A stretch of 40,818 nucleotides of DNA from contig CAMBPQ010000025.1 of the NCBI GenBank assembly GCA_945869735.1, positions 1-40,818 of the forward strand, read 5' to 3'. The translations under genes and the position numbers were made by a program. This document shows, one piece after another, positions 1 through 39,235 of this stretch. This DNA is from Planctomicrobium piriforme (lineage in GTDB: Bacteria > Planctomycetota > Planctomycetia > Pirellulales > UBA1268). The notes below the pieces were generated by a model. That model saw only the letters and a program-made list of their open reading frames with translations. It did not search any database and was not told the origin of the DNA. Every line of letters starts with the position of its first letter. The first letter of the stretch is position 1.

Positions 1-79
1 CCGTGGGTATCTCACGTGCGGGCTGCTCTGTTTCGGATTCGCCCACGCGGCCTGCACGGGCTGCGGTCCGGTCACGAGG

Positions 80-885
80 ACTTTTCTCTCTGGAGATCGT
101 GCGACTGCTCTGTGCTGAGCGCCTCGTCTGCTCTGAGCGAATCGTCTGCACGGCGGTAGGCACGTCGCATGACGCAGACTCACCAGCGACCGCTCGTCCA
201 CGCCTCGGCGCCATCTCCTTCCTCCACCGCTTTGGCTTGGGGCTCAACCGCCACGCACATGTGCGGGACTCAAGTCACCGACGGCGTCTTCATGCCGGGC
301 TCGGATAGCCCGGACGGGCCACCGGCGTTCCTGCCGACCCGACCGATCACCCAGGCCGATCTGGTTACGCTCACCGAGCAGGTCCGCCGTCCCGCGATCC
401 GCTGGTTCAAGCGTCAGGGCTTCCTCGATTCGCAAGCCGCTACCGACCTGCTCGCCTGGGAGAAGAGTGGGTTTTCGATAGACGCGAGTGTCCGCATCAC
501 ACTCATCGACCGTGACTTTTTCCCGACAGGATGCCCCAATCGCGAGCGCGGGGTAGACGTCCGCCACCCCAACCCGCTCCGTACCACGCCCACGCGTGCC
601 GATCTCATCCCGCCGGCTGCGGCGACGACATCCGGTTGGTTGCGTGTATCACCGAGCCCTTGCCCGATTCATACGACGACCGCCGGCAGGAGCCGGCCCA
701 CTTCGAACCGGAGGTTCGCAAGCGGGCGAAGGCCAGGATGGCTTCGCCCGCGTAAAGCAGAACCGCCGCCGGTCTCTTCCGCTCGCGGGCCGCCGACCGA
801 CTGGGCCGAACTCGTCCAGGCCCATGACGATCGCGACATCTTTCAGGTGACGGATAGACGAGCTGCCTGTAATCGACATCCACGC
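80..885 (+). pseudogene. IS91-family (Y2) transposase, degraded copy A
   Basis: Broken remains of an IS91-type rolling-circle transposase. About 195-255 encodes the motif ISFLHRFG.GLNRHAH. After a frameshift near 255 the next frame carries TDGVF, then a stretch ending in SGFSIDASVRITLIDRD (to ~530), matching the middle of Y2 transposases. A weak match to the preceding helix (FSLEIVRLL) starts near 85. The body is then interrupted by a REP-like repeat (538-596) and unrecognised sequence. A tail reading PPTDWAELVQAHD resumes near 780 and ends, after another frameshift, in ELPVIDIHAL and a stop at ~883. Copy B at 38.6-39.2 kb has the same head and tail. That the tail belongs to this transposase is inferred from its position in both copies. 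Inactive. Confidence 0.7.
538..596 (+). repeat. REP-like repeat, copy a
   Basis: GCCCCAATCGCGAGCGCGGG followed by a CACCCCAACCCGCTCC tail. Same family as copies at 8.6, 8.8, 26.5, 34.9 and 37.2 kb. It interrupts the IS91-type pseudogene between LIDRD and the tail, so it arrived after, or along with, the decay of that element. Confidence 0.6.
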
Positions 886-1070
886 GCTGTAAGGGCTGGC
901 GTAATCAGCCGGCCGATGGCCCGACCGGGGAAGGGTCTGCGCCGAGTGCGAAAAAAGGCTCTCGGGAGGGGGGGCGAGGCGGCCCGCCCAGACTGAATTC
1001 TGTGGCCGTAAGCGCCCACAGCCGGGCACACCCTCGCTCATCGGCCGTTCACCGACTGGAAGACGCTGGC

Positions 1071-1096
1071 GGAAGTGCCCTTGGCCGTCCTATCCT
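1071..1096 (+). promoter_or_regulatory. GGAAGTGCC..CTATCC box, copy 1
   Basis: The box GGAAGTGCC-N10-CTATCC ends 7 bases before the ATG of the gene at 1103. Related boxes lie at 2496-2520 and 39423-39447, each downstream of IS91-type debris. It may be a promoter (GGAAG and TATCCT resemble sigma-factor recognition elements) or part of the IS terminus. The spacing is shorter than in usual ECF promoters, so the role is open. Confidence 0.3.
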
Positions 1097-1102
1097 CTGA
1101 GC

Positions 1103-2113
1103 ATGGCACGATTCCGGTTCAAGTCCCTGTTCCGTCGCCGGGATCGCGGCAGTCCGATCAGCGTCGAGCACGTCGGCGGCAACGGCTCGCGGCTGGCGAG
1201 CGCGGCCTGCCCTGACCGCTTCATTGCCGAGTATCACAACGCCTGTCTCGGACTCGTGCGCGAGGCGCTTGCCGAAGTCGATATCCTGCTCGACGTCTGC
1301 TTTGGCGACGTGCCACCGCCGGCATCTTTTGACGCGAGCCGAACCCTCCGCATTGGACTGCAATGCGAGCATACGCTGGTGAAGCCTGGGGGCCGCGACT
1401 GCGGGGCAGCTCCGGCCGGTGGGATTCCAATTCCCGGGTGCGATGCGACCTACCTCGTGCGGATCGCCGGCTACGAGCAGCTTCGCGGATTTGACTGTGT
1501 GTTCGAGTACAGTCTGCCGAACCTGGCAAACATCGGCTCGTGTCCGCAGTTCACCGACTACCTGGTGAGAACGGTGTACGTGGCTCCTCTCATCGTTCCG
1601 CGGGGCGGGCCAGCGGGCGGGCGGCGGAGCGGCGCCGTGACGACGTTCCATGATTCTCACCAGCCGCGGCGGAAGGCGATTCTCGACCGCTGCCAACGGC
1701 AGAAGGTGCGCGTTCGCAACGTCACCGGTATCTTTGACGCCCAGAGGCTGGAGCGGCTCTACGGCAGCGTGCAGGTGCTTGTGAACGTTCACCAGACCGA
1801 CCACCACGACACGCTCGAGGAGCTACGGGTGTTGCCCGCGTTGCTGTGTGGGGCAGTCATCGTCAGTGAAGACGTGCCCCTGCGGACGGCCGTTCCCTAC
1901 CACCGCTTCGTCATCTGGGCCGACTACGACGGGATTCCAGAGGCGGTGCGGGCTACCCTTGCCGACTACGAAGCGCACCGGCGTCGAATCTTTGGCGATC
2001 CGGAGTTCGGCCCGACGCTGGCCGCTATGGACCGTAACAACAGGACCACCGTGACCACCGTGATCCGGAAGCTCGCGACGGCGATCGCGACCGGGGTACG
2101 GCAGCCCAACTGA
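1103..2113 (+). CDS. glycosyltransferase-like protein (GT1-type C-terminal half)
   Basis: A 336-residue soluble protein without signal peptide. The C-terminal third (roughly residues 225-290) contains LVNVHQTDHHDTLEELRVLP, then GAVIVSEDVPLRTAVPYH and FVIWADYDGIPE. This is the pattern of the nucleotide-sugar-binding half of family-1-like glycosyltransferases seen in cyanobacterial and planctomycete surface-polysaccharide loci (recalled, not searched). The N-terminal half is not recognised. The ATG at 1103 follows the GGAAGTGCC..CTATCC box with no clear Shine-Dalgarno. It stands alone between IS91 debris and a tRNA-Leu fragment, with no other sugar genes nearby, which suggests acquisition with a mobile islet. 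Acceptor and donor cannot be told. Confidence 0.6.
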   Translation: MARFRFKSLFRRRDRGSPISVEHVGGNGSRLASAACPDRFIAEYHNACLGLVREALAEVDILLDVCFGDVPPPASFDASRTLRIGLQCEHTLVKPGGRDCGAAPAGGIPIPGCDATYLVRIAGYEQLRGFDCVFEYSLPNLANIGSCPQFTDYLVRTVYVAPLIVPRGGPAGGRRSGAVTTFHDSHQPRRKAILDRCQRQKVRVRNVTGIFDAQRLERLYGSVQVLVNVHQTDHHDTLEELRVLPALLCGAVIVSEDVPLRTAVPYHRFVIWADYDGIPEAVRATLADYEAHRRRIFGDPEFGPTLAAMDRNNRTTVTTVIRKLATAIATGVRQPN

Positions 2114-2134
2114 CCCGCCCCTTGAATCCAAGAG

Positions 2135-2186
2135 TGCCGGGGGTGGGACTTGAACCCACACGCCCTTACGGGCAACGGATTTTGAA
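2135..2186 (-). pseudogene. 3' fragment of tRNA-Leu (CAA anticodon loop to discriminator)
   Basis: On the minus strand the sequence runs from an anticodon loop TTCAAAA, through the long variable arm GCCCGTAAGGGC, a T arm with loop GTTCAAGTCC, to an acceptor 3' strand ending CCCCGGCA. This is the 3' half of a class II tRNA-Leu. Upstream of the loop the expected 5' anticodon strand (ACGGA) is TCGCA, and no D arm or 5' acceptor strand (TGCCGGGG-like) follows. The break at the anticodon loop is typical of the segment left by integration at a tRNA gene. Not a functional tRNA. Confidence 0.75.
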
Positions 2187-2309
2187 TGCGATCAGAACCG
2201 TTGGTCGTGTCGCACTCGCGTCACGATTATGGAAATTTCTCCAGAACGGCGCATGTCGCTCGGCGCGAGAATCTTGACCTTCACGGACGCGCAGGCCTGC
2301 GTACAGCGG

Positions 2310-2366
2310 CAACGCCGCCTGTCTCGCCTGCCCGTGGGCCGCCGACCGACTGGGCCGGACTCGGAG
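2310..2366 (+). pseudogene. IS91-type transposase tail fragment
   Basis: Encodes PPVSPARGPPTDWAGL, matching the tail of copy A (PPVSSARGPPTDWAEL) and the fragment at 36.0 kb. It diverges soon after, and the terminal PVIDIHSL is absent. Sequence between the tRNA fragment and here (2187-2309) was not recognised. Confidence 0.5.
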
Positions 2367-2458
2367 GCCGGCAGCGCCGACCCAGCAAAATCTTCACCAC
2401 CGGGTGGGTGAGGCGGGCTTCCGTGTTCAGCTCGGCACGGTCGGGAAAGCCTATCCAG

Positions 2459-2520
2459 CGGCTCACGAGATGCTCATCATTCCGAACATGGTTACGGAAG
2501 TGCCATTGACCAGGCTATCC
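2459..2520 (+). repeat. IS-associated 62-bp repeat with GGAAGTGCC box, copy 2
   Basis: GCGGCTCACGAG, TCCG.ACATG and GGAAGTGCCATTGACC..CTATCC align with 39385-39447 over about 62 bp. As in the other copies it lies a little downstream of IS91 tail sequence. It abuts the first base of the 162-bp element at 2521. Confidence 0.55.
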
Positions 2521-2682
2521 CTCGAGCGCATCTGCCTTTGGTGGAGCGGCGAGATGGCAGCTTGGAGGAGGGAGGCAAGGGGGTCGGCGAACGCTCGAGG
2601 AGCCTTGGGCGTATCCTCGCCCCGGCGACGAGACTTTTGCCGCCCCCGAGCCGGCGTTCCACCAAAGTCGAATGCGGTCGAG
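2521..2682. repeat. 162-bp CTAG-class element, copy 1
   Basis: The best-preserved copy. Its ends form an inverted repeat of 27 bp with 22 matches (2521-2547 and 2656-2682, sharing CTCGA.CGCAT and CTTTGGTGGA). The core holds GGGGGTCGGC pairing with GCCGCCCCC and an inner hairpin GGGCG/CGCCC. The core is virtually identical to copies 2 and 3. This copy starts CTCGAG rather than CTAGAG and does not abut a recognisable gene on its left. The small size, inverted ends and lack of coding capacity suggest a non-autonomous MITE-like element. Confidence 0.7.
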
Positions 2683-2705
2683 AGCACTTCACCCGCGGCG
2701 GGCAC

Positions 2706-3779
2706 CTACCAACGGGCTTCCAGGCCCACGTTCGCACCGTGGAGGAACACGCCTCCGGCGTCTTGAACGCCGGTGCCACTGGTGGGAGTGTCGGTGAAGT
2801 CCCACTGGTTAGGGGCGAGCGCCACGCCGCTGAGCCAGGCAAGGTTGTAGCCCAGCCGCAGTCCCCACACGTCGGTGAACCGGTAGGCCATCGAGAGGTT
2901 CATGCTCGAGAGGAAGCCCAGGCCGGTGTCGGCCGCCTCGCGGCCCGGCCGCCATTCGAAGTCGGACGAGAGCGAACTGGTGATCGGTGACGCCGACTGC
3001 GAGAGCCACGCACCACCCAGACCGGCCTTCAGCGCCCCTTCCAGGGAGAAGCGATCCCATGTCCTCCTGCCCCGCATGCCCAGTTGCCCGCCGAAGAGAT
3101 TCGAGCTCGTCGCCACCCGATAGGCCGTGGTCGGCTCGCCCGCCGCCACCGTGACCCGTAGCGCAGCCTGTTCGTCGAGGCCCGCCCAGAACAGGCCGCC
3201 GATCCAGTCAAACTCCGTCTCCTGCCGGCAGCGCAGCGTCGGCCACCGCGAACGGGGATCGCAACGCCCAGAAAAATCACTTTGCAGGAGGTTCAGCTCG
3301 ACCACGTTGAGCGATGACGACCACCCGGTCCGCACCGTGCTGGCCTGGTTCCAGCCCGGCACCGCTAAGCCTAGGTCGCCGGGCACGGCGAGTCCGCCGA
3401 CGAGGTCGGCCTGCGCGTCGCCGTACCAGCCGTAGGCGCTCCAGTAGCCGATTTCCCAGCCGGTCTGGTCACAGTCATGGCGGCCCACGAAAAGCCGCAT
3501 GCCGGGGGCAGTCGTGGGCGTCATGCTCCGCGTGGTGAGGACTGTGCCGCCGGCCCCAGGGACGTTCGGTCCCTCGACGAGGGTCGGCTGGTTGTTCGTC
3601 GCGTTGTCACGATCGAGGAAGAGGACATCGAAGACGACATAGTCCCGCACATTTTCCATCGCCGCCACTTCGCCGGCCACCACCGGAAACGAATCGGCCG
3701 GGAGGGGATCGCCCACGATCTCCTGGGCCACGGCCACCGACCACGGCAGGAGCATGCACGCAAGCAGTCGAACGATCAT
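2706..3779 (-). CDS. BBP7 family outer membrane beta-barrel protein
   Basis: A 357-residue exported protein from the ATG at 3779, which follows a GAGGGGGAA ribosome-binding sequence. It begins with a signal peptide (MIVRLLACMLLPWSVAVAQ). The mature part has the layout of the planctomycete BBP7 family (PF07585): a VFDVLFLDRDNATNN start, glycine/aromatic alternating strands (GMRLFVGRHD, GWEIGYWSAYGW), FDWIGGLFWAGLD, a long central region, and a last strand ending in LEARW with a terminal aromatic, as expected for outer-membrane insertion. The molecular role of the family is not established. The gene is divergent from the STAS gene, sharing a 279-bp upstream region. Longer in-frame starts exist but would place the signal peptide internally. 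Confidence 0.8.
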   Translation of the reverse strand: MIVRLLACMLLPWSVAVAQEIVGDPLPADSFPVVAGEVAAMENVRDYVVFDVLFLDRDNATNNQPTLVEGPNVPGAGGTVLTTRSMTPTTAPGMRLFVGRHDCDQTGWEIGYWSAYGWYGDAQADLVGGLAVPGDLGLAVPGWNQASTVRTGWSSSLNVVELNLLQSDFSGRCDPRSRWPTLRCRQETEFDWIGGLFWAGLDEQAALRVTVAAGEPTTAYRVATSSNLFGGQLGMRGRRTWDRFSLEGALKAGLGGAWLSQSASPITSSLSSDFEWRPGREAADTGLGFLSSMNLSMAYRFTDVWGLRLGYNLAWLSGVALAPNQWDFTDTPTSGTGVQDAGGVFLHGANVGLEARW

Positions 3780-4058
3780 GCTTTCCCCCTCGGCAGCCTC
3801 ATGGCGGCCACCGACATCGGCACGCCCCCTCCAACCGCCACAATCCCTACCTGTGGAGCGATCGGACTTTTTGAAGCCGCTCATGAGAAGAATCGTTGCC
3901 ACGGGACGAGTCGGTGCGACAGCGGGCAAACTGCGGCGGCTCTGCGGCCCGCCGCCCCTGCGGCCCGACTGCTGGCAGGGCCTGTCTCAAAACGCTACGC
4001 TCTTGCCTACGGATGGCACATCTTGCCCCGCTTTACACCCTTGCCTGAGTAAACATCT

Positions 4059-4415
4059 ATGGACCAGTTCCGTCGCATCCAGACTGGGAAAAAGGGGGAC
4101 ATCCATCTCGTCCTCCTCAAGGACAAGAAAATCCTCGATGACACCGTCCTCGATGAGATTCGCACGGAAGTGACGCAACTCATCGGCAAGGCTACGGGGC
4201 CTGACATGCTGATCGATTTCGCCAATGTTGAGTTCATGTCGAGTGCGATGCTCGGCCTCCTCGGGCAGTTGCATCGCAAGATTTCGAAAGGCCAGGGTCG
4301 GCTAAAGATGTGCGGGATTCGTCCGGAGATCCTCACGGTCTTCAAGATCACGAATCTCGATAAGCTCTTCAGCATCCACAAGGATGCCCCGACGGCCCTC
4401 GCCACGTTCACCTGA
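4059..4415 (+). CDS. STAS-domain anti-sigma factor antagonist
   Basis: A 118-residue protein consisting of one STAS domain. The helix-capping motif VEFMSSAMLGLL places the phosphorylatable serine at Ser61 or Ser62, as in SpoIIAA/RsbV. In the unphosphorylated state such proteins bind an anti-sigma factor or a kinase of the RsbW type. The next gene, starting 14 bases downstream, is a receiver/PP2C phosphatase of the class that dephosphorylates STAS antagonists, so the two probably form a switch. No RsbW-type kinase or sigma factor is in the window. No clear Shine-Dalgarno precedes the ATG. Confidence 0.88.
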   Translation: MDQFRRIQTGKKGDIHLVLLKDKKILDDTVLDEIRTEVTQLIGKATGPDMLIDFANVEFMSSAMLGLLGQLHRKISKGQGRLKMCGIRPEILTVFKITNLDKLFSIHKDAPTALATFT

Positions 4416-4429
4416 CGCGGGCGAAGCAT

Positions 4430-5854
4430 GTGGCACAGGAACCAGACGGCGGTGCGGCTGTGAATCCGACTGGCGTCGACGTGCTGATTGCCGAAGACAG
4501 CCGCATGCAGGCGAAGATGCTGCAGCGGCGGCTCCTGGACGCCGGCCACACGGTCCGCTGGGGGGAAAACGGCGCGCTGGCGTTGGCCATGGCCCGGGAG
4601 CGGCGGCCCGACATCATCGTCTCCGACATCGAGATGCCGGAGATGACCGGCTACGAGTTCTGTAAGGCGGTGAAGACCGACCCCGCGCTCCGAACGGTAC
4701 CGTTCATCCTTCTGTCGACTCTCTCGGATTCGATCGACATCATCCGCGGGTTGGACGCCGGGGCCGACAACTACGTCACCAAGCCCTACGAGCCCGACTA
4801 CCTGTTGGCCCGCATGCAGTCGCTGCTCGCCACACCGCTCACCGCTGCCGATGACTCGGGCGACGAGATGCTCGAGGTCACGCTCGCCGGGCAGAAGTTC
4901 CGGGTGCGTGCCGGCCGCCAGCAGGTGCTCAACCTCCTCGTCTCGACGTTCGAAAACGCCGTCTCGAAGAACCAAGAGCTCGTGGTGGCCAACCAAGAAC
5001 TCTCAGTGGCCCGCGACGGGCTGCAGAAATCGAACGGGGAGCTGACCGCGCTCAACACCGAGATCTCGCGGATCAACGCCCACATGGTCCGCGACCTCAA
5101 GGCCGCCGCCAAGGTACAGCGGTCGCTCCTCCCCGCCGAAGACATTGAGATCCCCGGCACGAGCATCTCCTGGAAATACGTCCCCTGCCAAAGCCTCGCT
5201 GGCGACTTCCTCAACGTCTTCCTGCTCGACGACGAGCATGCGGGGCTCTTCGTGGTCGACGTCAGTGGCCACGGCGTACCCTCGTCGCTGATGGCCGTCA
5301 CGGTCGGCCGCTTCCTCACGCCCAAGGTCTCCGACCAGTCGCTGCTGGTGCGACAGGGAGCGGATGGCCGCGTGGCCGTCGTACCGCCGGCCGAGGTGGC
5401 CACGCAGCTCAACAAGCTCTTCCAGGCCGACGAGTTCTCCGGCCTCTACTTCACGATGCTCTACGGCGTGCTCCACCTGCCCAGCGGCCGGTTCGACTAC
5501 TGCTCGGGCGGCCATCCGGCCCTCGTGCGGGTGCCCGCCTCCGGCGGCGACGTCGAGTTCCACACGACTGAGAGTTTCCCGATCGCATTCGTGCCCGACG
5601 TCGAGTATTCGCAGAGCACGCTACAACTCGCTCCCGGCGACCGGCTCTTCCTCTACTCCGACGGCGTGCCGGAGGCGATGGACAAAGACCGTAACCCGTA
5701 CGGCGACGACGCCATGGCCGCGTGCATCGCAGCCTCCCGAGGGGCGGCGATCGACACGGGCGTGTCGACCCTGCTCGAGGCCGTCGAGACGTGGTGCGTG
5801 CCCAACGGCCCACTCGACGACGTTTCGATCCTCGGCGTCGAGTGGCGGCCGTAG
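4430..5854 (+). CDS. response regulator with PP2C-type (SpoIIE/RsbU) phosphatase domain
   Basis: A 474-residue protein. Residues ~16-130 are a receiver domain: acidic pair Glu22/Asp23, phospho-acceptor Asp66 in SDIEMPEMTG, Ser96 and Lys118 in TKPYEP. A coiled-coil linker (about 165-225, rich in NQEL and EISR) leads to a SpoIIE-type PP2C domain with SLAGDFLNV, VVDVSGHGVPSSL, SGGHPALV, LFLYSDGVPEA and a final LDDVSIL, so all metal-binding aspartates appear present. It should dephosphorylate a phospho-STAS protein, most simply its neighbour 14 bases upstream, when Asp66 is phosphorylated. The frame opens with GTG at 4430; another GTG at 4460 is possible. An ATG at 4428 is in the wrong frame. Confidence 0.9.
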   Translation: MAQEPDGGAAVNPTGVDVLIAEDSRMQAKMLQRRLLDAGHTVRWGENGALALAMARERRPDIIVSDIEMPEMTGYEFCKAVKTDPALRTVPFILLSTLSDSIDIIRGLDAGADNYVTKPYEPDYLLARMQSLLATPLTAADDSGDEMLEVTLAGQKFRVRAGRQQVLNLLVSTFENAVSKNQELVVANQELSVARDGLQKSNGELTALNTEISRINAHMVRDLKAAAKVQRSLLPAEDIEIPGTSISWKYVPCQSLAGDFLNVFLLDDEHAGLFVVDVSGHGVPSSLMAVTVGRFLTPKVSDQSLLVRQGADGRVAVVPPAEVATQLNKLFQADEFSGLYFTMLYGVLHLPSGRFDYCSGGHPALVRVPASGGDVEFHTTESFPIAFVPDVEYSQSTLQLAPGDRLFLYSDGVPEAMDKDRNPYGDDAMAACIAASRGAAIDTGVSTLLEAVETWCVPNGPLDDVSILGVEWRP

Positions 5855-5899
5855 CTGTTCTTTTGCCGTAGCACACTCTGCGAGGAGCCCCGGGCAGCA

Positions 5900-6011
5900 C
5901 CTGCCTTGGAGCCGGGCTCGACGGCCAACGGAGCCAGGATGGCGAAACGCAAACGGCGTGCAATGAGCGGAGGCCAGGATGGCCAAAGTGAACGACCGGC
6001 ACCGGGGCAGG
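5900..6011. repeat. Inverted-end element R2, copy 1
   Basis: The 90-bp core 5911-6000 aligns without gaps with 7565-7654 (shared AACG.AGCC, GGATGGCG, TGAGCGGAGG, GAACG.CCGGC). The flanks pair with each other: CCTGCCTTGGAGCCGG (5900-5915) against the complement of 5996-6011, 13 of 16 matching. The flank sequence differs from copy 2, yet both copies self-pair. It lies in the 267-bp space between two convergent genes, which otherwise holds nothing recognised. Confidence 0.55.
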
Positions 6012-6121
6012 GGCGGGACGGCGAACTCACTACCGCGGCCTGGGCTTGGAGTAGCCGCAAACCGCCGGACGTCACCCGCTCCCAACCATCGTCGCCAGCC
6101 TGAGCAGCCGCAGAGGGCGAT

Positions 6122-7381
6122 TCAGGCAGGTTTTCCGGCACTCGCCACACTGGCAGCATCATCCATCGAGGCATTCATCAGGGGCCAGAGGGCGTCGATG
6201 CCGTCCTTGAAGAAGTCACCGATCAGGATGTCGGTGATCAGTTGCTTCGACTCGCCGTGTTGCTTGACGAGTTGGCCGAAGTTGAGGCCGTCGTAGAAGC
6301 CGCACACGAGCTTTCGCATCCGATCCATGCCGGCGACGTAGTCCGGACCCCACGTGCCCAGTCGGTCTTCGGACGTATCGCCCTGCTCGAGCCCGGCGAC
6401 GATCGCGTCAGCCGCCAGCGCTCCACTTTTGAGTGCTAGGAGAATCCCAGAAGAGTAAAGCGGATCGAGAAATCCGAAGGCATCGCCCACCAGCACCCAG
6501 CCGTCACCGGCAACCTTCGTGGAGCGGTAAGAGTATTCCTTGGCCGCACGGAAGGGAGCGACTCGTTCGGCGGCTGCGATCCGCGGCTGCACACCAGGAC
6601 AGCGGACCACTTCCTCGCCGTAGATTATCTCGAGGTCTTTCGAGTCGCGGTTCTTGAAGAGGTGATCGTACGGAGCAACCACGCCGACACTGACCATGTC
6701 GTCAGCCAGCGGGATGTACCAGAACCAGCCGATCTTACCCGCCGTCTGCATCACGAGCGTGGCGCCCGCGTCGCGGCCGGTCTCCCGCATCGCCCCCTTC
6801 CAGTAGGTCCAGATCGCGGCCTTCTTCAGAACCGGATCCCACTGGCGGAGCCCCAGCCGGTCGAGGATCAATCCGCTCTGCCCGGCGGCATCGACGACGA
6901 CCTGGCAGCGAATCACCTGCTCGACACCCGAATCGTCGACCGCCCGCACGCCCACCGCCCGCTCTCCCTCGAAGAGCACCTCAAGGACACGCACCCCTTC
7001 CTGCACGTCGACTCCATGCCGACGGGCGTTGTCGAGCAAGAGCTGATCGAACTCCTGCCGCGACACCTGCCAGGTGCGCGAACTCTCATGCTCCTTGTAA
7101 TCGGCGAAGTAAAACGGCTCCGACACGCGGCCCTGCTCGGACACGAACTGCACGCTGTGCTTCTCGACGAAGGGGCCGCCGCGCAGCGTCGGCAGGATGC
7201 CAAGCCGACCGAGCACCCAAAACGTCTCCGGGATCAGCGATTCCCCAACGTGATACCGGGGGAACCGCTCCCGCTCGAGCAGCCGCACCGTTCGGCCCTG
7301 CTGTGCCAAGAGCGTGGCCGTGGTGGACCCGGCCGGCCCACCGCCGATAACAACCACCTCGGGGCTGCCTGCTGCAATCAT
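6122..7381 (-). CDS. flavin-dependent halogenase-like FAD oxidoreductase
   Basis: A 419-residue protein from the ATG at 7381 (MIAAGSPEVVVIGGGPAGS). It has the marks of FADH2-dependent halogenases (PF04820): GGGPAG at 13-18, FPRYHVGESLIP at 40-51, Lys74 in FVEK at the position of the catalytic lysine, the WxWxIP signature as WFWYIP at 219-224, and FLDPLYSSG at 304-312 corresponding to Fx.Px.Sx.G. The family oxidises chloride or bromide to a hypohalous acid that the lysine steers to an electron-rich substrate. Some planctomycete relatives may instead be reductases of the geranylgeranyl-reductase type. No flavin reductase, carrier protein or biosynthetic cluster is adjacent, so the substrate is unknown. 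A longer in-frame start (7477) lacks family similarity. Confidence 0.75.
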   Translation of the reverse strand: MIAAGSPEVVVIGGGPAGSTTATLLAQQGRTVRLLERERFPRYHVGESLIPETFWVLGRLGILPTLRGGPFVEKHSVQFVSEQGRVSEPFYFADYKEHESSRTWQVSRQEFDQLLLDNARRHGVDVQEGVRVLEVLFEGERAVGVRAVDDSGVEQVIRCQVVVDAAGQSGLILDRLGLRQWDPVLKKAAIWTYWKGAMRETGRDAGATLVMQTAGKIGWFWYIPLADDMVSVGVVAPYDHLFKNRDSKDLEIIYGEEVVRCPGVQPRIAAAERVAPFRAAKEYSYRSTKVAGDGWVLVGDAFGFLDPLYSSGILLALKSGALAADAIVAGLEQGDTSEDRLGTWGPDYVAGMDRMRKLVCGFYDGLNFGQLVKQHGESKQLITDILIGDFFKDGIDALWPLMNASMDDAASVASAGKPA

Positions 7382-7412
7382 GTCTCTGTTTCCAGTCGCA
7401 ACGGTCAAAACC

Positions 7413-7424
7413 GAAACACGTTTC
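7413..7424. promoter_or_regulatory. GAAACACGTTTC palindrome, candidate operator
   Basis: A perfect 5-bp inverted repeat (GAAAC-AC-GTTTC), 31 bases upstream of the halogenase-like start. Position suits an operator, but no regulator gene is adjacent and a 12-bp palindrome can arise by chance. Confidence 0.25.
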
Positions 7425-7545
7425 AAAACTCTAGGCGCAACCTCCGCCACCGACAACACGACCTCCACTCCCGGCATGTTGCCCGAAACTGAGGGCCCCT
7501 GGATCCTTTTTCCCTGCCTCCTGTGTCCCTGATCGCCGTGGACCG

Positions 7546-7673
7546 GAATTGCCCCCGCCGTGACGCCGGGCTTGCTGGCCAGCGAAGCCTGGATGGCGGA
7601 GCGCAGGCAGCATGCAGTGAGCGGAGGGCAGAATGCCCGCAGAGAACGTCCGGCGACACGGCGGGGGCAATCC
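7546..7673. repeat. Inverted-end element R2, copy 2
   Basis: A 128-bp unit bounded by a 24-bp inverted repeat with 22 matches (7546-7569 and 7650-7673; ends GAATTGCCCCC and GGGGGCAATCC). The core 7565-7654 matches copy 1 at 5911-6000. No coding capacity. It occupies much of the ~390-bp gap (7382-7774) between the halogenase-like gene and the small basic-protein gene; no other feature apart from the palindrome at 7413 was recognised there. Confidence 0.65.
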
Positions 7674-7774
7674 CATGCGGTGTCGATCCGGACGGCACGT
7701 GGTGCATCACTGCTGACAACTGCGCTCAGAAAAAGTGCTTACAAAACTCCTCCAGCCAAACTTGAGCAAACCGC

Positions 7775-8203
7775 TCAGCCCTCGAACTGGCGGAGCGCCT
7801 CGAGTGCGGCTATCGCGCGATCCAGCCCGCCCAGCCGCCCCACGGCCTTCTTGGCGGCCACGAGATCCTCGATCGAGATCTTCGACTTCGACTTGGACTT
7901 CACGCCCTTGCTGGCCGCCGCGACCACAGCCGAGAGGTCGCCGCTTTTGCGACGCTTCCGTGGCCGAAAGCCCATGCGCTTGAGCACCATGCTCACCTGC
8001 GGTGACGAGACCACGACGCCCTGCTTCTTAAGGATCGCGATGATGGCCACGGGCCGGGGCTTCTCCCCCTTGGCCTTCATCAACGTGGCGATCTTGCGGA
8101 TCTCCTCGGACTTGTTGACATCTTTCGGCGATTTCTTTTCAGTAGCTTTCTCGACCATCGCTTCCGCACCCACTTTCTCAGTTTGTATTACAATCTCGTT
8201 CAC
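7775..8203 (-). CDS. small basic HTH-like protein, function unknown
   Basis: A 142-residue protein, rich in Lys and Arg. Residues ~30-85 look like a helical DNA-binding region (NKSEEIRKIATLMKAKG, then VAIIAILKKQGVVVSSPQVS and MVLKRMGFRPRKRRK), resembling a winged helix with a basic tail. Residues ~108-142 form another helical segment (IEDLVAAKKAVGRLGG). Similar proteins are recalled from other Pirellulales, without known function. The frame opens with GTG at 8203, preceded by GAGGT at about 10 bases; an internal ATG at 8158 is an alternative. Upstream TTATTATT could be part of a promoter. It stands alone. Confidence 0.65.
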   Translation of the reverse strand: MNEIVIQTEKVGAEAMVEKATEKKSPKDVNKSEEIRKIATLMKAKGEKPRPVAIIAILKKQGVVVSSPQVSMVLKRMGFRPRKRRKSGDLSAVVAAASKGVKSKSKSKISIEDLVAAKKAVGRLGGLDRAIAALEALRQFEG

Positions 8204-15200: not shown

Positions 15201-15806
15201 ATCGGCCGCTCGCGGATCGCGGTGCTCGAGGCGCTCCTGCGACTCCGGCAGACCGCCTGCCATCAGGGTCTCGTCGACCACTCCCGCGTCGACGAGTCGT
15301 GCGCCAAGCTCGACACGCTGCTCGAGCAGCTCGAAGAGGTCCTCGACGAGGGGCACAAGGTGCTCGTGTTCAGCCAGTTCACTAGTTTCCTGGCGATTCT
15401 TCGGCGGCGGCTCGACGAGAAGAAGACGGTCTACGAATACCTCGACGGTCGTACGACCGACCGGCAGGCGCGGGTCGTGCGCTTTCAGGAGGACCCCGAC
15501 TGCAGGCTGTTCCTCGTGAGCCTCAAGGCCGGCGGCCAGGGCCTCAACCTCACAGCGGCCGACTACATTTACATCCTCGACCCCTGGTGGAATCCGGCAG
15601 TAGAGGCCCAGGCTGTTGATCGCGCCCACCGCATCGGTCAGACACGGCGGGTCTTCGCCTACCGACTCATTGCCCGCGACACGGTCGAGGAAAAGATTCT
15701 AGCCCTCCAGGATCGCAAGCGGGAGCTGGCCGAGTCGATCGTGCGAGCCGACGAGACCATGATCGCCAGCCTCACACCAGAGGACGTCGAACTGCTGCTT
15801 TCCTAG
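12282..15806 (+). CDS. SNF2/RapA-family helicase with long N-terminal region
   Basis: A 1174-residue protein from the ATG at 12282 (MKTLEQRLFHLFP). The last ~460 residues are a complete SNF2 ATPase: Walker A DDMGLGKTIQ at ~741, DEAQ box (LDEAQSIKN) at ~843, LTGTPVENHIGELWSIFEFL, SQFTSFLAILRRRLDEK, and motifs V/VI in SLKAGGQGLNLTAADY and AVDRAHRIGQTRRVFAYRL. It probably remodels protein-DNA complexes or RNA polymerase. The ~700-residue N-terminal part is not recognised beyond a cysteine-poor region near residue 70 (CSTPAGREGRPCAVL) that may be a decayed SWIM zinc finger, and an acidic stretch at ~115-140. Its TAG stop lies in the first bases of a 162-bp element. Confidence 0.88.
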   Translation: MKTLEQRLFHLFPAADVARARTITPASVACPRVGQVKATVVGDDGDEHEVRLELSAHRRGGMTLETTCSTPAGREGRPCAVLAAVLLEVDRRRLLSGIHDQTPVTLAIVAEDLPAHDEAGDDALDDAADDTGGEPAGRGAGEPAPASSWTPPPSARRNSQRLPPWAAELEERRRLVEPAVRSHALVIPDQRRAGGALVFVLDLGASADARAAVLVPSRMQLDVAGNATGRPRPVVLGPGEVELDQLEPQERSIVEQLVGAAAAGDGGLPESPERRTISRVVVSPKSAATHLAMLCEAGRLVVQPEPRRDPERVVPLTWDGGTPWEFAFVLEPDDEDVRPAKPRSQAAVDDDEPLPRPAKATLRGMLVRGSQRKPLNEPKAILRAGLVVFSDRIARLQSTADAATAAVSSGWMEQFERRGPIEIASTHVDGLIERLAMLSDVPRLVVPAWTGWRIESGVPQPKLVLDDSPAVSLDEPATPGGRRRQQTRVQLAGRVWFDYAGMMIAADDPAGGTADASRRIFVRRDRVAEREALALLPRYGATAPRGQALDDAAATHHVEIPRNRLDSSVSQLAASGWMVEVAGRRYRPAGSVAWNVTSGIDWFELSAAIDFGGVTAELPALLEAIARGSRSVELPDGSIGILPDTFAQEFEPMAALAQRHDGRLRFGRIQMALLDALLAGQPQSHVDAAFDKLREQLASGEQPEAEPEPPGFQGTLRHYQREGLGWLVFLEKLGIGGCLADDMGLGKTIQVLALLARRQADVRAAGLPHRPSLVIVPRSLVFNWIEEARKFAPELKVVNHTGTTRADETGTLDDWDIVITTYGTLRRDIIAHRETEFDYVILDEAQSIKNAASQAAKACRLLRARHRLALTGTPVENHIGELWSIFEFLNPGQLGSASRLRKFLADGRGSTDIVARAVRPYLLRRTKAQVLSDLPEKTEQTLFVELGETQRKAYDELREHFRAELAGRIGRMGIGRSRIAVLEALLRLRQTACHQGLVDHSRVDESCAKLDTLLEQLEEVLDEGHKVLVFSQFTSFLAILRRRLDEKKTVYEYLDGRTTDRQARVVRFQEDPDCRLFLVSLKAGGQGLNLTAADYIYILDPWWNPAVEAQAVDRAHRIGQTRRVFAYRLIARDTVEEKILALQDRKRELAESIVRADETMIASLTPEDVELLLS

Positions 15807-15964
15807 AGCACATCTGCCGTTTGTCGAGCGGCGAGATGGTACCTTGGAGGAGGGAGGCAAGGGGGTCGGCGAACGCTCGAGGAGCCTTGGGCGTATCCTC
15901 GCCCCAGCGACGAGACTTTTGCCGCCCCCGAACCGGCGATCCACGTCGGTCGAATAGGGTCTCG
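15803..15964. repeat. 162-bp CTAG-class element, copy 2
   Basis: Exactly the length of copy 1. It begins CTAGAGCACATCTGCC, and this TAG is the stop codon of the SNF2 gene. The core from GGAGGAGGGAGGCAAGGGGG onward matches copy 1 almost base for base. The right end (to 15964) is more diverged and only partly complementary to the left end. It lies 59 bases upstream of the response-regulator start. Confidence 0.7.
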
Positions 15965-16914: not shown

Positions 16915-18699
16915 ATGCCGCGCACCCGACTCGTCTGGCATCTCTTCGCAGGCTGGTGTGCGCTCGTAACGATGACGCTGGCCGTCGGTTTCTGGATCGC
17001 GAGCGTCCAGTTGGCGGACATCGTCGATGAAGCCCAGCGGATGCGGATGATCGATTCGGCCAGGGCCATCGCCGCGGTGTTCGGCGACGGCGGCATGGCC
17101 GCCGACCCGGGGGCGTTCTCCGATTTCGCCCGTAGAAATCTGGCATCGACGCGGATCGACCTGCGGTTATTCACACCCGCAGGCGATCCACTCACCGCTC
17201 CCGCCGCAGCGTCGTCCCCCGCGGCCACGGGGAGCGACGACGGCCTGCTCGCCGCGGCGCGTGACGGCCGTGTGGCCAGCGCGAGCCATTACGACCTCGC
17301 CTCCGGTCGCCGGTCGCTCGCCGTCGCCGTACCCGTGGGCCCCGCCGGCCGGCCGACTGCGCTCATCATCGCGACGGCCGACACTGCCGAATCGGACCGC
17401 AGCCTGGCCGCCAGACAACGTCGATTGCTCGTCGGCTGCGCCGCCGCCGCAGCGGTCGCCTCGGCCGGCGGCTACGCGCTCGCCCGCCGGGTGGCCCGCC
17501 CCGTCGAGGAACTCGCCGGTGCCACGGCCCGGATGGCAGCCGGCGACATCACGGCACCGATCCCAACGGCAGACGTGGCGGAGATCGCCGATCTCTCCGC
17601 GGCCCTCACCCTGCTCCGCGAGCAGCTCGTGGAACGCGGTCTGACGATCGGACGGCAGGGCACTCAGCAGGAGGCGGTGCTCGGTAGCATGATCGAGGGG
17701 GTGCTGGCAATTGACGCCCGGCAGCGGATCGTCGGCATCAACCGCGCCGCCGCCGACCTGCTTGGCGTCGAGATCGAGCACGCCATCCGCCGTCCGCTCC
17801 AAGATGTGATCCGCAACCCGGACCTCCGGCGCTTCGCCCTCAAGGCCATCGATTGCCGTGAGCCCGTCGAGGACGATCTGGTGCTCGGCAACGCGCGAGA
17901 CCGCACAATCCGGCTCCGAGGAACGGCGCTTCGCGACGTTTCTGGCGACGGAGGAGCCGTGATCGTTCTCAACGACGTCACCGACGTGCAGCGGCTCGAG
18001 AACGTCCGCCGCGATTTCGTCGCCAATGTGTCGCATGAACTGAAGACACCCATCGCCTCGATTAAAGGCTTCGTGGAGACTCTCCTCGACGGTGCGATGG
18101 ACGATCCTGCCGATACCAGGCGGTTTCTCGGGATCGTCGCCCGGCAGGCCGACCGACTCGCGGCGATCATCGAGGACCTGCTGGCTCTGTCGCGGATCGA
18201 GCAGAGCGAGGGGGCGGGCAATCTCCCGGTAGAGACCGTGGCCGTCGCGGACGTGCTGGCAGCAGCCGTGGGTGACTGCGGCTTGCGGGCCGCCGACCGG
18301 AATCTCACGCTCGAGACATCCTGCCCCGACGAACTCAGCGCCGCCGTCAACGCACCGCTCCTCGAGCAGGCCGTCATAAACCTGATCGACAACGCGATCA
18401 AGTACACCGCCCCCGGCAAGGCGGTGTGGCTCTCGGCCAGCGCCGAGGAGACAGAGGCGGGGGCCAGCCACCTGACGATTCGCGTCCGCGACGAAGGCTG
18501 CGGCATCGCGGCCGAGCATCTCCCGCGGCTCTTCGAGCGATTCTACCGCGTCGACAAGGCCCGCAGTCGCAACCTGGGGGGCACGGGCCTCGGCCTTTCG
18601 ATCGTCAAGCATATCGTGCAGGCGCACGGTGGAACCGTTGCAGTGGAGAGCACGCCGGACGTGGGGACCACCTTCACGATCCGCCTGCCACGAGGCTAG
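16915..18699 (+). CDS. PhoR-like sensor histidine kinase
   Basis: A 594-residue membrane kinase. An N-terminal helix (LVWHLFAGWCALVTMTLAVGF), a ~145-residue periplasmic domain and a second helix near 180 (LLVGCAAAAAVASAGGYALA) lead to HAMP (RRVARPVEELAGATARMAAGD), a PAS-like domain (VLGSMIEGVLAIDARQRIVG), then HisKA with His374 in NVSHELKTPIASIKG and HATPase_c with LIDNAIKYTAPGK, RDEGCGIAAEHL, FERFYRVDKARS and GGTGLGLSIVKHI. It should phosphorylate the response regulator encoded just upstream. The signal is unknown. The TAG stop is part of the CTAG at the start of the third 162-bp element. Confidence 0.92.
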   Translation: MPRTRLVWHLFAGWCALVTMTLAVGFWIASVQLADIVDEAQRMRMIDSARAIAAVFGDGGMAADPGAFSDFARRNLASTRIDLRLFTPAGDPLTAPAAASSPAATGSDDGLLAAARDGRVASASHYDLASGRRSLAVAVPVGPAGRPTALIIATADTAESDRSLAARQRRLLVGCAAAAAVASAGGYALARRVARPVEELAGATARMAAGDITAPIPTADVAEIADLSAALTLLREQLVERGLTIGRQGTQQEAVLGSMIEGVLAIDARQRIVGINRAAADLLGVEIEHAIRRPLQDVIRNPDLRRFALKAIDCREPVEDDLVLGNARDRTIRLRGTALRDVSGDGGAVIVLNDVTDVQRLENVRRDFVANVSHELKTPIASIKGFVETLLDGAMDDPADTRRFLGIVARQADRLAAIIEDLLALSRIEQSEGAGNLPVETVAVADVLAAAVGDCGLRAADRNLTLETSCPDELSAAVNAPLLEQAVINLIDNAIKYTAPGKAVWLSASAEETEAGASHLTIRVRDEGCGIAAEHLPRLFERFYRVDKARSRNLGGTGLGLSIVKHIVQAHGGTVAVESTPDVGTTFTIRLPRG

Positions 18700-18846
18700 A
18701 GCGGCTCCGCTTTTGGCATAGCGGCGCGATGGCACCTCGGAGAGGGTAGCCGAGGGGGGTCGGCGAACGCTCGAGGAGCCTTGGGCGTATCCTCGCCCCG
18801 GCGACGAGACTTTTGCCGCCCCTGAGCTGGCGAGACACGCATCTAA
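18696..18846. repeat. 162-bp CTAG-class element, copy 3 (between convergent stops)
   Basis: Begins CTAGAGCGGC and ends ..CGCATCTAA. The left TAG stops the sensor kinase (plus strand); the TAG read from the right end stops the SDR gene (minus strand). The ~69-bp core is identical to copy 1. Its right end shows the GGCGAGACAC variant shared with copies 4 and 5. About 151 bp. It fills the whole space between the two genes and, with its G+C-rich hairpins, could act as a two-way terminator. Confidence 0.7.
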
Positions 18847-30968: not shown

Positions 30969-31035
30969 GCCTCTAGCCAAGCAGATCCTCGCCTGGATCG
31001 GATTACCCACAGGCAAGTTCCCCCTGGAAGGCTAG
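30946..31035 (+). pseudogene. unidentified C-terminal gene fragment
   Basis: A frame reading FVDKGEPLAKQILAWIGLPT and GKFPLEG ends in the TAG of element copy 5. The residues look protein-like but were not assigned to a family. The fragment follows directly on the broken VapC sequence, marking a deletion joint near 30930-30945. Confidence 0.3.
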
Positions 31036-31193
31036 AGCGCATCCGCTTTTGGCGGAGCGGCGAGATGGCGCCTTGGGAGAGGGAGGCAAGGGGGTCGGCG
31101 AACGCTTGAGGAGCGTTGGGCCGCCGCGGCCCACAGCAACGAGCCTTTTGCCGCCCCCAAGCCAGCGAGACACGTACGTTGGATGAGCTCTCA
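31032..31193. repeat. 162-bp CTAG-class element, copy 5
   Basis: Begins CTAGAGCGCATCC and ends with the near complement GGATGAGCTCTCAG. The core keeps GAGGGAGGCAAGGGGGTCGG and CTTTTGCCGCCCCCAAG. Where copies 1-3 have the inner hairpin GGGCG/CGCCC, this copy has GGGCCGC/GCGGCCC: different bases, same fold. It lies just downstream of the HEAT-repeat gene stop on the opposite strand (TAG at 31214-31212). Confidence 0.65.
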
Positions 31194-36007: not shown

Positions 36008-36138
36008 TGCTGCCGCCGGTCTCTCCCGCCCGCAAACCGCCCACCGACTGGGCCGAACTCGTCCAGATACATGACGAACGCGACGTGACTCAGGCGTCGC
36101 CCGACGAGTTCCCCGTGATCGACATCCACAGCCTGTGA
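36008..36138 (+). pseudogene. IS91-type transposase tail fragment (intact tail frame)
   Basis: Reads PPVSPARKPPTDWAELVQIH, DERDVTQASPDEFPVIDIHSL and a stop, in one frame without interruption. It shows what the frameshifted tails of copies A and B encoded. No head or catalytic region accompanies it. The ~180 bases after it, up to the methyltransferase stop at 36322, contain nothing recognised. Confidence 0.5.
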
Positions 36139-38572: not shown

Positions 38573-39235
38573 CCGAAGCGGTGGCGGGTCTTTCTCACCG
38601 ACCGACCCCGAGCCGTCGCCTCGCTCACGAAGATCTTCCTGGCCGAGATCGAGCGGTTTCTGCTCGCGGCGGCAGGCGGGAACCCTGCTGCCGAGACGCC
38701 GAGAGCTTCCCGCCCGCGACTCGGCGGCATCTCATTCCTGCACCGCTTCGGCTCGGCGCTGAACCATCACGTGCGCCTGCACGCGTGCGTGACCGACGGC
38801 GTCTTCGTGCCGGCTGCTGCCGCACCGGCGTGTGACGCCCCGCCGGCGTTCATCCAAGCGCGGCCGGTCACTCAAGTCCACCTGGCCGCGCTCACCGAGC
38901 GGGTACGGCGCCGCGTGGTCCGGTGGTTCAGGCTCAACCGCCTGCTCGACGCCGCTGCCGCTGCCAACATGCTCGCCTGGGAGAACAGCGGGTTTTCAAT
39001 CGATGCTTTTCGTCCGGATCACGCTCCTCGACCGCGATGTGCCGAGCTATTTTCGAAGTCTCGACCACTTGCTGAGATACTGTGCACGGCCTCCCTTTGC
39101 GCTGGAACGGCTCTCCGTGATCCGCGGCCCGCCCACCGATTGCGGCGAGCTCGTGCAGATGCATGATGAGCGCGGCGTTTTTCAGGCGACGGAGAGACGA
39201 GCTGCCCGTGATCGACATCCACAGCCTCTGAGCCG
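38573..39235 (+). pseudogene. IS91-family (Y2) transposase, degraded copy B
   Basis: Better preserved than copy A. KRWRVFLTDRPRAV, LTKIFLAEIERFLLAAAGG, ISFLHRFGSALNHHVRLHAC, VTDGVFVPAAA and NSGFSIDA are in one frame. After a frameshift near 39003 comes VRITLLDRD and HLLRYCARPPFALERLS. The catalytic C-terminal third is deleted: ALERLSVI is joined directly to the tail RGPPTDCGELVQMHDERGVF, which is frameshifted and ends ELPVIDIHSL (stop ~39232). The upstream 38337-38572 interval was not recognised. Confidence 0.72.

Follow-up and report, generated by a model that had tools for sequence, protein, structure and literature searches.

Attachment sites centred on the anticodon and displaced 3′ tRNA fragments are standard among elements integrated in tRNA genes, as three studies show (PMC4383910, PMC9897764, PMC2951348). 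Islander counts 3760 islands that have a 3′ fragment and 2083 whose site is centred on the anticodon (PMC4383910). The islands and prophages it describes combine a tyrosine integrase, a regenerated tRNA gene, a displaced 3′ fragment at the far end of the element and a crossover in the anticodon loop. The locus described here is of the same build but keeps the displaced end only: its attachment arm is truncated, and neither the element nor its integrase was found. Partial tRNA genes that arise in prokaryotes from partial duplication at integration are likewise a subject of PMC9897764, which, unlike our case, concerns archaea (Thermococcaceae) and about 9–23 kb of integrated viral DNA. A further parallel is the defective KplE1/CPS-53 prophage (10.2 kb; PMC2951348) in the tRNA gene argW, whose integrase has separate arm-type and core-type sites. 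It differs in its duplicated core of 16 bases and in an integrase promoter that overlaps attL, whereas in the relatives discussed below it is the end of the integrase gene that borders the tRNA. A literature search aimed at planctomycete elements returned no paper on this family of integrases and elements among the matches listed.

We analyzed a contig of 40,818 nt from Planctomicrobium piriforme (hereafter the window; its genome is G000 among those compared). With high confidence, we interpret the feature studied as an attR scar, truncated and located at a synteny breakpoint, that was made by an element which a tyrosine recombinase inserted at the anticodon loop of tRNA-Leu(CAA) (Table 1). 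The scar is real but ordinary, of a known kind.

Table 1. Features of the window in and around the displaced tRNA-Leu(CAA) half.
Feature	Position	Strand	Evidence
IS91-type transposase C-terminus remnant, in pieces	615–889	plus	80% over 265 bp to C5:220-483; tblastn
Glycosyltransferase-like gene, on the downstream-flank side of the half	1103–2113	plus	of 71 genomes searched, detected in G000 alone
Displaced 3′ part of tRNA-Leu(CAA), U33 to discriminator	2135–2185	minus	two mismatches in 51 bases against the intact gene
Probable truncated remnant of the attachment arm on the element side (attR arm)	2186–2276	minus	homology to sister scars; without the TGTTAGG pair
Junction stretch with IS91-type remnant (2297–2362) and dispersed repeats; gene-order breakpoint	2277–2705		tblastn, repeats, start of homology
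Chromosomal cluster, not element genes	2706–5854	BBP7-type porin minus; STAS protein and response regulator-SpoIIE phosphatase plus	DNA identity, Pfam

Read on the minus strand from 2185 to 2135, the half comprises U33, the anticodon, the variable arm, the T arm and the 3′ strand of the acceptor up to the discriminator A, and aligns over its 51 bases with two substitutions relative to the intact gene. The original prediction of a segment that runs from the anticodon loop to the discriminator and has no 5′ half is thus confirmed, except that its length of 52 bases is one too many: base 2186 differs from tRNA-Leu(CAA), so the half ends at 2185. In a whole-genome search the match to the intact gene extended over 53 bp at 96% identity (E = 1.4e-18 in the own genome), far beyond chance. 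With the half as query, three places were detected in this genome: its own position, the intact gene and another half, at C106:6240-6327. The intact partner with a matching 3′ half, which had been proposed as a check, is therefore present elsewhere in the genome (C5:1297-1380, minus strand). It is the sole intact copy detected and, as it lies on a contig other than the window's, its spatial link to the half is unproven. ARAGORN called no tRNA in the window, and Rfam gave no match at E ≤ 1 in positions 1–8000; accordingly, neither a complete tRNA gene nor a group I intron was seen. When the tRNAs called by ARAGORN in the fetched loci (27 kinds by anticodon) were compared with the window by BLAST (E ≤ 1e-4), they matched at this half alone.

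The homology continues beyond the tRNA. In a search of 146 genomes (our own and relatives) with the half and its flanks, the best matches ran 70–90 bases upstream of the tRNA part, in the sense of the tRNA, and matches to the whole unit of arm and 3′ half stopped between window positions 2255 and 2276. This unit is present on C106 of the same genome and in eight relatives (G008, G039, G053, G025, G009, G055, G024 and G016). Over 89 bp, the window arm was 70.8% identical to that of C106 (E = 3e-10) and 74.2% to that of G053 (E = 9e-13) in a comparison that used a small database and permissive 1/−1 scoring. With the G053 arm alone as query and default scoring, the window arm did not reach E ≤ 0.001 and C106 was the only match in our genome; the homology of the window arm therefore rests on the whole-unit search and the permissive comparison. 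An element-side arm common to other scars and elements is present, though weakly so for the arm by itself.

On re-alignment, the sister arms proved to be ∼100–130 bases long, and most carry two direct repeats, TGTTAGGC/TGTTAGG, 12 bp apart; the Leu arm of G009 has, by eye, a single copy. Paired repeats at this distance were found in all six sister arms tested and in 42 of 56 attL regions. Such arm-type pairs are a mark of this integrase clade, not of tRNA elements generally. The window contains no TGTTAG word, and its arm has no repeat with a 12-bp period. We read the missing pair as a loss, which would make the arm a remnant and not a working site.

Without its tRNA part, the G053 arm was detected at 16 places in 13 of the 146 genomes (E ≤ 0.001), several of them over short stretches only. 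BLAST of the collected tRNAs placed a displaced half behind 11 (Leu 8, Met 2, Lys 1), while four lie near an intact tRNA-Leu(CAA) (G002, G024, G025 and G048) and one (G030) is without any tRNA. A dispersed SINE-like repeat is unlikely given this rarity and the tRNA half or intact tRNA-Leu beside 15 of the 16 places. Two further tRNA-Met halves stand behind such an arm in G025:C149 and G009:C70. A tRNA-Lys 3′ piece behind the same arm type, at L144:1030-1128 (G004), represents a third tRNA target for it. In several scars a gene with a HEWAH motif, metallopeptidase-like by eye, ends just before the arm (e.g. L049:2380-3003); the G055 copy of its protein matched no Pfam or PHROG family.

We also compared intact genes and displaced halves at two positions, in the T stem (CCCAC or CCCTC) and at the acceptor end (GGCA or GGTA). 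The two forms were the same in 15 of 15 other genomes, counting genomes in which both forms were read and leaving out G079, G141, G009 and those with one form; this agreement is weak evidence, since shared ancestry would give the same. In our genome, the window half agrees with the intact gene at these positions and the C106 half, which the search pattern missed and which was read from the alignment, does not. The sequences suggest that the window and C106 scars may stem from different events. By eye, the intact tRNA-Leu(CAA) genes of G053, G025, G044, G024 and G051 have a U-U mismatch in the T stem (the CCCTC type) that also occurs in displaced halves; 3′ halves brought in by elements may have left this imprint. 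A scan of the relatives' loci revealed no empty site for the C106 scar, the FBPase gene that adjoins this scar standing beside tRNA-Leu only in G053. In that genome, the interval between the intact tRNA-Leu(CAA) and its half (L036:4494-6791) encodes a toxin of ParE type, has a second ORF that is ParE-like and shows no PF00589 match.

Relatives hold complete elements with a consistent anatomy, in which an intact tRNA is followed by a convergent tyrosine integrase, ∼8.5–11.7 kb of DNA in all and then a displaced 3′ half that starts in the anticodon loop or stem, as the window half does at U33. In G044 and G025 the intact tRNA-Leu(CAA) has a tyrosine integrase gene (PF00589) immediately downstream that faces it; integrases of the same clade are convergent with this tRNA in G002 and G116 as well, and G003 has a fragmentary copy 611 bp from it. 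Near the integrase, an intact convergent tRNA was found at 17 of 30 loci in related genomes (none at 13) and at 56 of 74 testable loci in named genomes (the other 18 had none within 800 bp), the latter being the best 79 of 137 relatives less five with short flanks; the two sets overlap (they share, e.g., G044, G025 and G002), and related sequences do not count as independent. Among the named-genome loci the adjacent tRNAs were of 17 kinds by anticodon, and nearly all named records with relatives of the integrase are Planctomycetota by title.

The 12-bp spacing also marks the tRNA-side ends. Within 180 bases after the tRNAs, 42 of 56 loci had a best direct repeat whose period was exactly 12, compared to 39 of 1120 shuffled sequences, where the control consists of mononucleotide shuffles and related loci are not independent. 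A stricter script applied to shorter stretches scored the repeat above shuffles in 33 of 54. In the attL of G025, G002 and G024, CTGTTAGGC occurs twice, 12 bp apart, as in the scar arms of C106, G053 and G016, and CTGTTAGGCGCACTGTTAGGCGC after the tRNA in the same three attL genomes is the repeat word of the scar arms. Similarly, the tRNA-Met element of G014 carries CTGTTAGCAAAACTGTTAGCAAA, close to the tRNA-Met scars.

Among individual elements, that of G116 starts at tRNA-Leu(CAA) with the convergent integrase 87 bp away and extends over 11.7 kb to a displaced 3′ half that begins in the anticodon loop. In G125, the intact tRNA-Leu and the half are 6.5 kb apart, with an integrase between them ∼2.4 kb from the tRNA. 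Complete elements of 8.5–11.1 kb were also read at six loci of named genomes, two of them at tRNA-Lys and one each at tRNA-Cys, tRNA-Met, tRNA-Leu and tRNA-Arg; this size range is biased against longer elements because at most 10 kb of flank was fetched per locus. Repeats spaced by 12 bp, with the same or nearly the same word, occur at both ends of five of the eight complete elements (L192, L200, L203, L205 and G116); with the stretches used, L158, L191 and G125 showed no such pair at both ends. One gene of the G116 element (L121:3693-15462) matches phage head maturation proteases, and this element could be a small prophage or satellite. On the G044 contig, the integrase is accompanied by a gene for a family A DNA polymerase. 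Relatives of the integrase alignment are encoded on 45 IMG/VR contigs, and deposited phage records gave no match to the family.

An integrase between the two sites had been suggested as a further check of the footprint. None was found on the window contig, and the intact tRNA and the displaced half lie on different contigs. PF00589 matches in our genome fall on C7, C10, C3, C94 and C56, and neither the integrase nor the HEWAH-motif protein matched the window in tblastn at E ≤ 1, so that an integrase or element gene in the window was rejected. The integrase family was not detected in this genome at E ≤ 1e-30. A 30%-identical segment on C56 (E = 5.6e-20) shows that the genome holds a distant integrase; this segment belongs to another integrase. 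Pfam assigned some of the flanking genes to a porin, a STAS protein, a response regulator-phosphatase, a flavin-dependent oxidoreductase and a glutamyl-tRNA reductase.

The proposed course of events starts with an element whose tyrosine recombinase would have recombined it with the sole detected tRNA-Leu(CAA) gene at the anticodon loop. A copy of the tRNA 3′ half borne by the element would have rebuilt the gene at one end, and the original 3′ half would have been displaced to the far end, behind the attachment arm of the element. The displaced half (2135–2185) and about 90 bases of the arm (2186–2276) would be what remains in the window. Because of the polarity of the half, the lost element is placed to its right; there the rest of it would later have been deleted or torn away, and an IS91-type remnant and an unrelated chromosomal cluster are now found. 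We infer that the window copy was made by the same integrase clade as the complete elements, and likewise the order of deletion and rearrangement. No clean empty site could be shown for the window scar. The suggestion of a likely integration footprint at tRNA-Leu is nevertheless well supported by the intact partner gene, the break in the anticodon loop, the homology of the arm and the complete elements in relatives.

To the right of the arm, the junction stretch matched the C-terminus of an IS91-type protein at 2297–2362 (tblastn, 70% over 23 residues, E = 2e-4) and gave repeat matches at 2295–2363, 2454–2520 and 2520–2679. The last of these belongs to a dispersed repeat of ∼140–160 bp with four copies in the window that are 80–90% identical (2520–2679, 15802–15961, 18696–18832 and 31032–31167). 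From ∼2705 on, the cluster (Pfam domains BBP7, STAS, SpoIIE and Response_reg) shows about 70–88% DNA identity to seven relatives. A gene for a 912-residue TPR protein adjoins it in six of the seven (not in G014) and is located on contig C73 in our genome. The neighbour group on the right-hand side is common to four of the five relatives with enough sequence (not G010) and includes, in G009 and by eye, CheB, CheR and a chemoreceptor; in our genome it is not beside the cluster, and CheB has a 40% match only. Since these neighbours typical of the relatives, the TPR gene and the right-hand group, do not adjoin the cluster here, the scar sits at a gene-order breakpoint. No island can be delimited, with the intact gene on another contig and a conserved chromosomal cluster soon following on the right.

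The break in gene order between 2276 and 2705, together with the TPR gene on C73, the 40% match of CheB and the intact tRNA on C5, makes it about an even chance that the scar was moved here by rearrangement, out of either the tRNA locus or an element array at that site, although no junction sequence shows such a move directly. This possibility is compatible with the reading as an attR scar. Far less probable is an origin without site-specific integration, in which ordinary recombination or IS91-type insertion sequences close by duplicated part of tRNA-Leu. It would agree with the IS91-type remnants on both sides (618–889 and 2297–2362), the other repeats nearby and the contig's lack of an integrase, but is countered by homology that runs 70–90 bases past the tRNA part into an arm common to scars in eight relatives, by the same arm before Met and Lys halves and by a break at the point where the complete elements of the clade break. 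The anticodon loop, where this break lies, is also the site where group I introns and splits occur, but the chance that we are dealing with half of a split or intron-bearing tRNA gene, its 5′ half further away, is negligible, with no other tRNA piece or intron found near the half (ARAGORN, Rfam and BLAST of the collected tRNAs), an intact gene in the genome and an arm before the half that is common to scars of other tRNAs.

Read as an attR scar, the displaced half with its remnant arm allows a vanished element to be recognized after its genes are lost, and the arm hints at the kind of element. The window scar alone changes little. Of most interest among the by-products is the wider family, in which a single integrase clade is found next to tRNA genes of 17 kinds and a single arm type stands ahead of Leu, Met and Lys halves. 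Tentatively, and with less than even confidence, the scar might stem from a lineage of integrative elements that spans the Planctomycetota and whose integrases, of a single clade, have moved between 17 or more kinds of tRNA gene. Such elements would break in the anticodon loop or stem wherever both ends are readable, would usually carry two arm sites at a spacing of exactly 12 bp, with a sequence that varies from one integrase to another, and would leave halves that persist as gene-order breakpoints. With arm sites that vary between integrases and many tRNA targets, the family is a natural data set for how integrases change their target tRNA and arm sites.

On the left, the glycosyltransferase-like gene and the IS debris had been taken to mark the island. 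By the polarity of the half, both are on the side downstream of the tRNA, and the element would have lain to the right (>2186). The gene at 1103–2113 has relatives, 34–39% identical, on 12 AT-rich IMG/VR contigs of 36–190 kb; from their composition and span, our guess is that these contigs are giant-virus DNA. Pfam yielded nothing for its protein at E ≤ 5. Its predicted model (mean pLDDT 77.9) gave only weak matches, some of them to unrelated proteins; the best were to accessory secretion protein 1 and to SenB, a glycosyltransferase (TM 0.42–0.44), a weak match to a GT-B-like fold. On this structural prediction, the glycosyltransferase label is plausible, not proven. The debris at 618–889 was matched by the L047:7299-7820 protein (tblastn, E = 1.5e-14), which in turn matches plasmid genes named IS91 family transposase. 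C-terminal remnants of this type occur in the window at 618–889, 2297–2362, 36013–36135 and 38886–39228, and because they recur at the last two positions, the copy at 618–889 is no evidence for this particular boundary. A similar IS91-type remnant is found ∼0.8 kb from the intact tRNA-Leu on C5.
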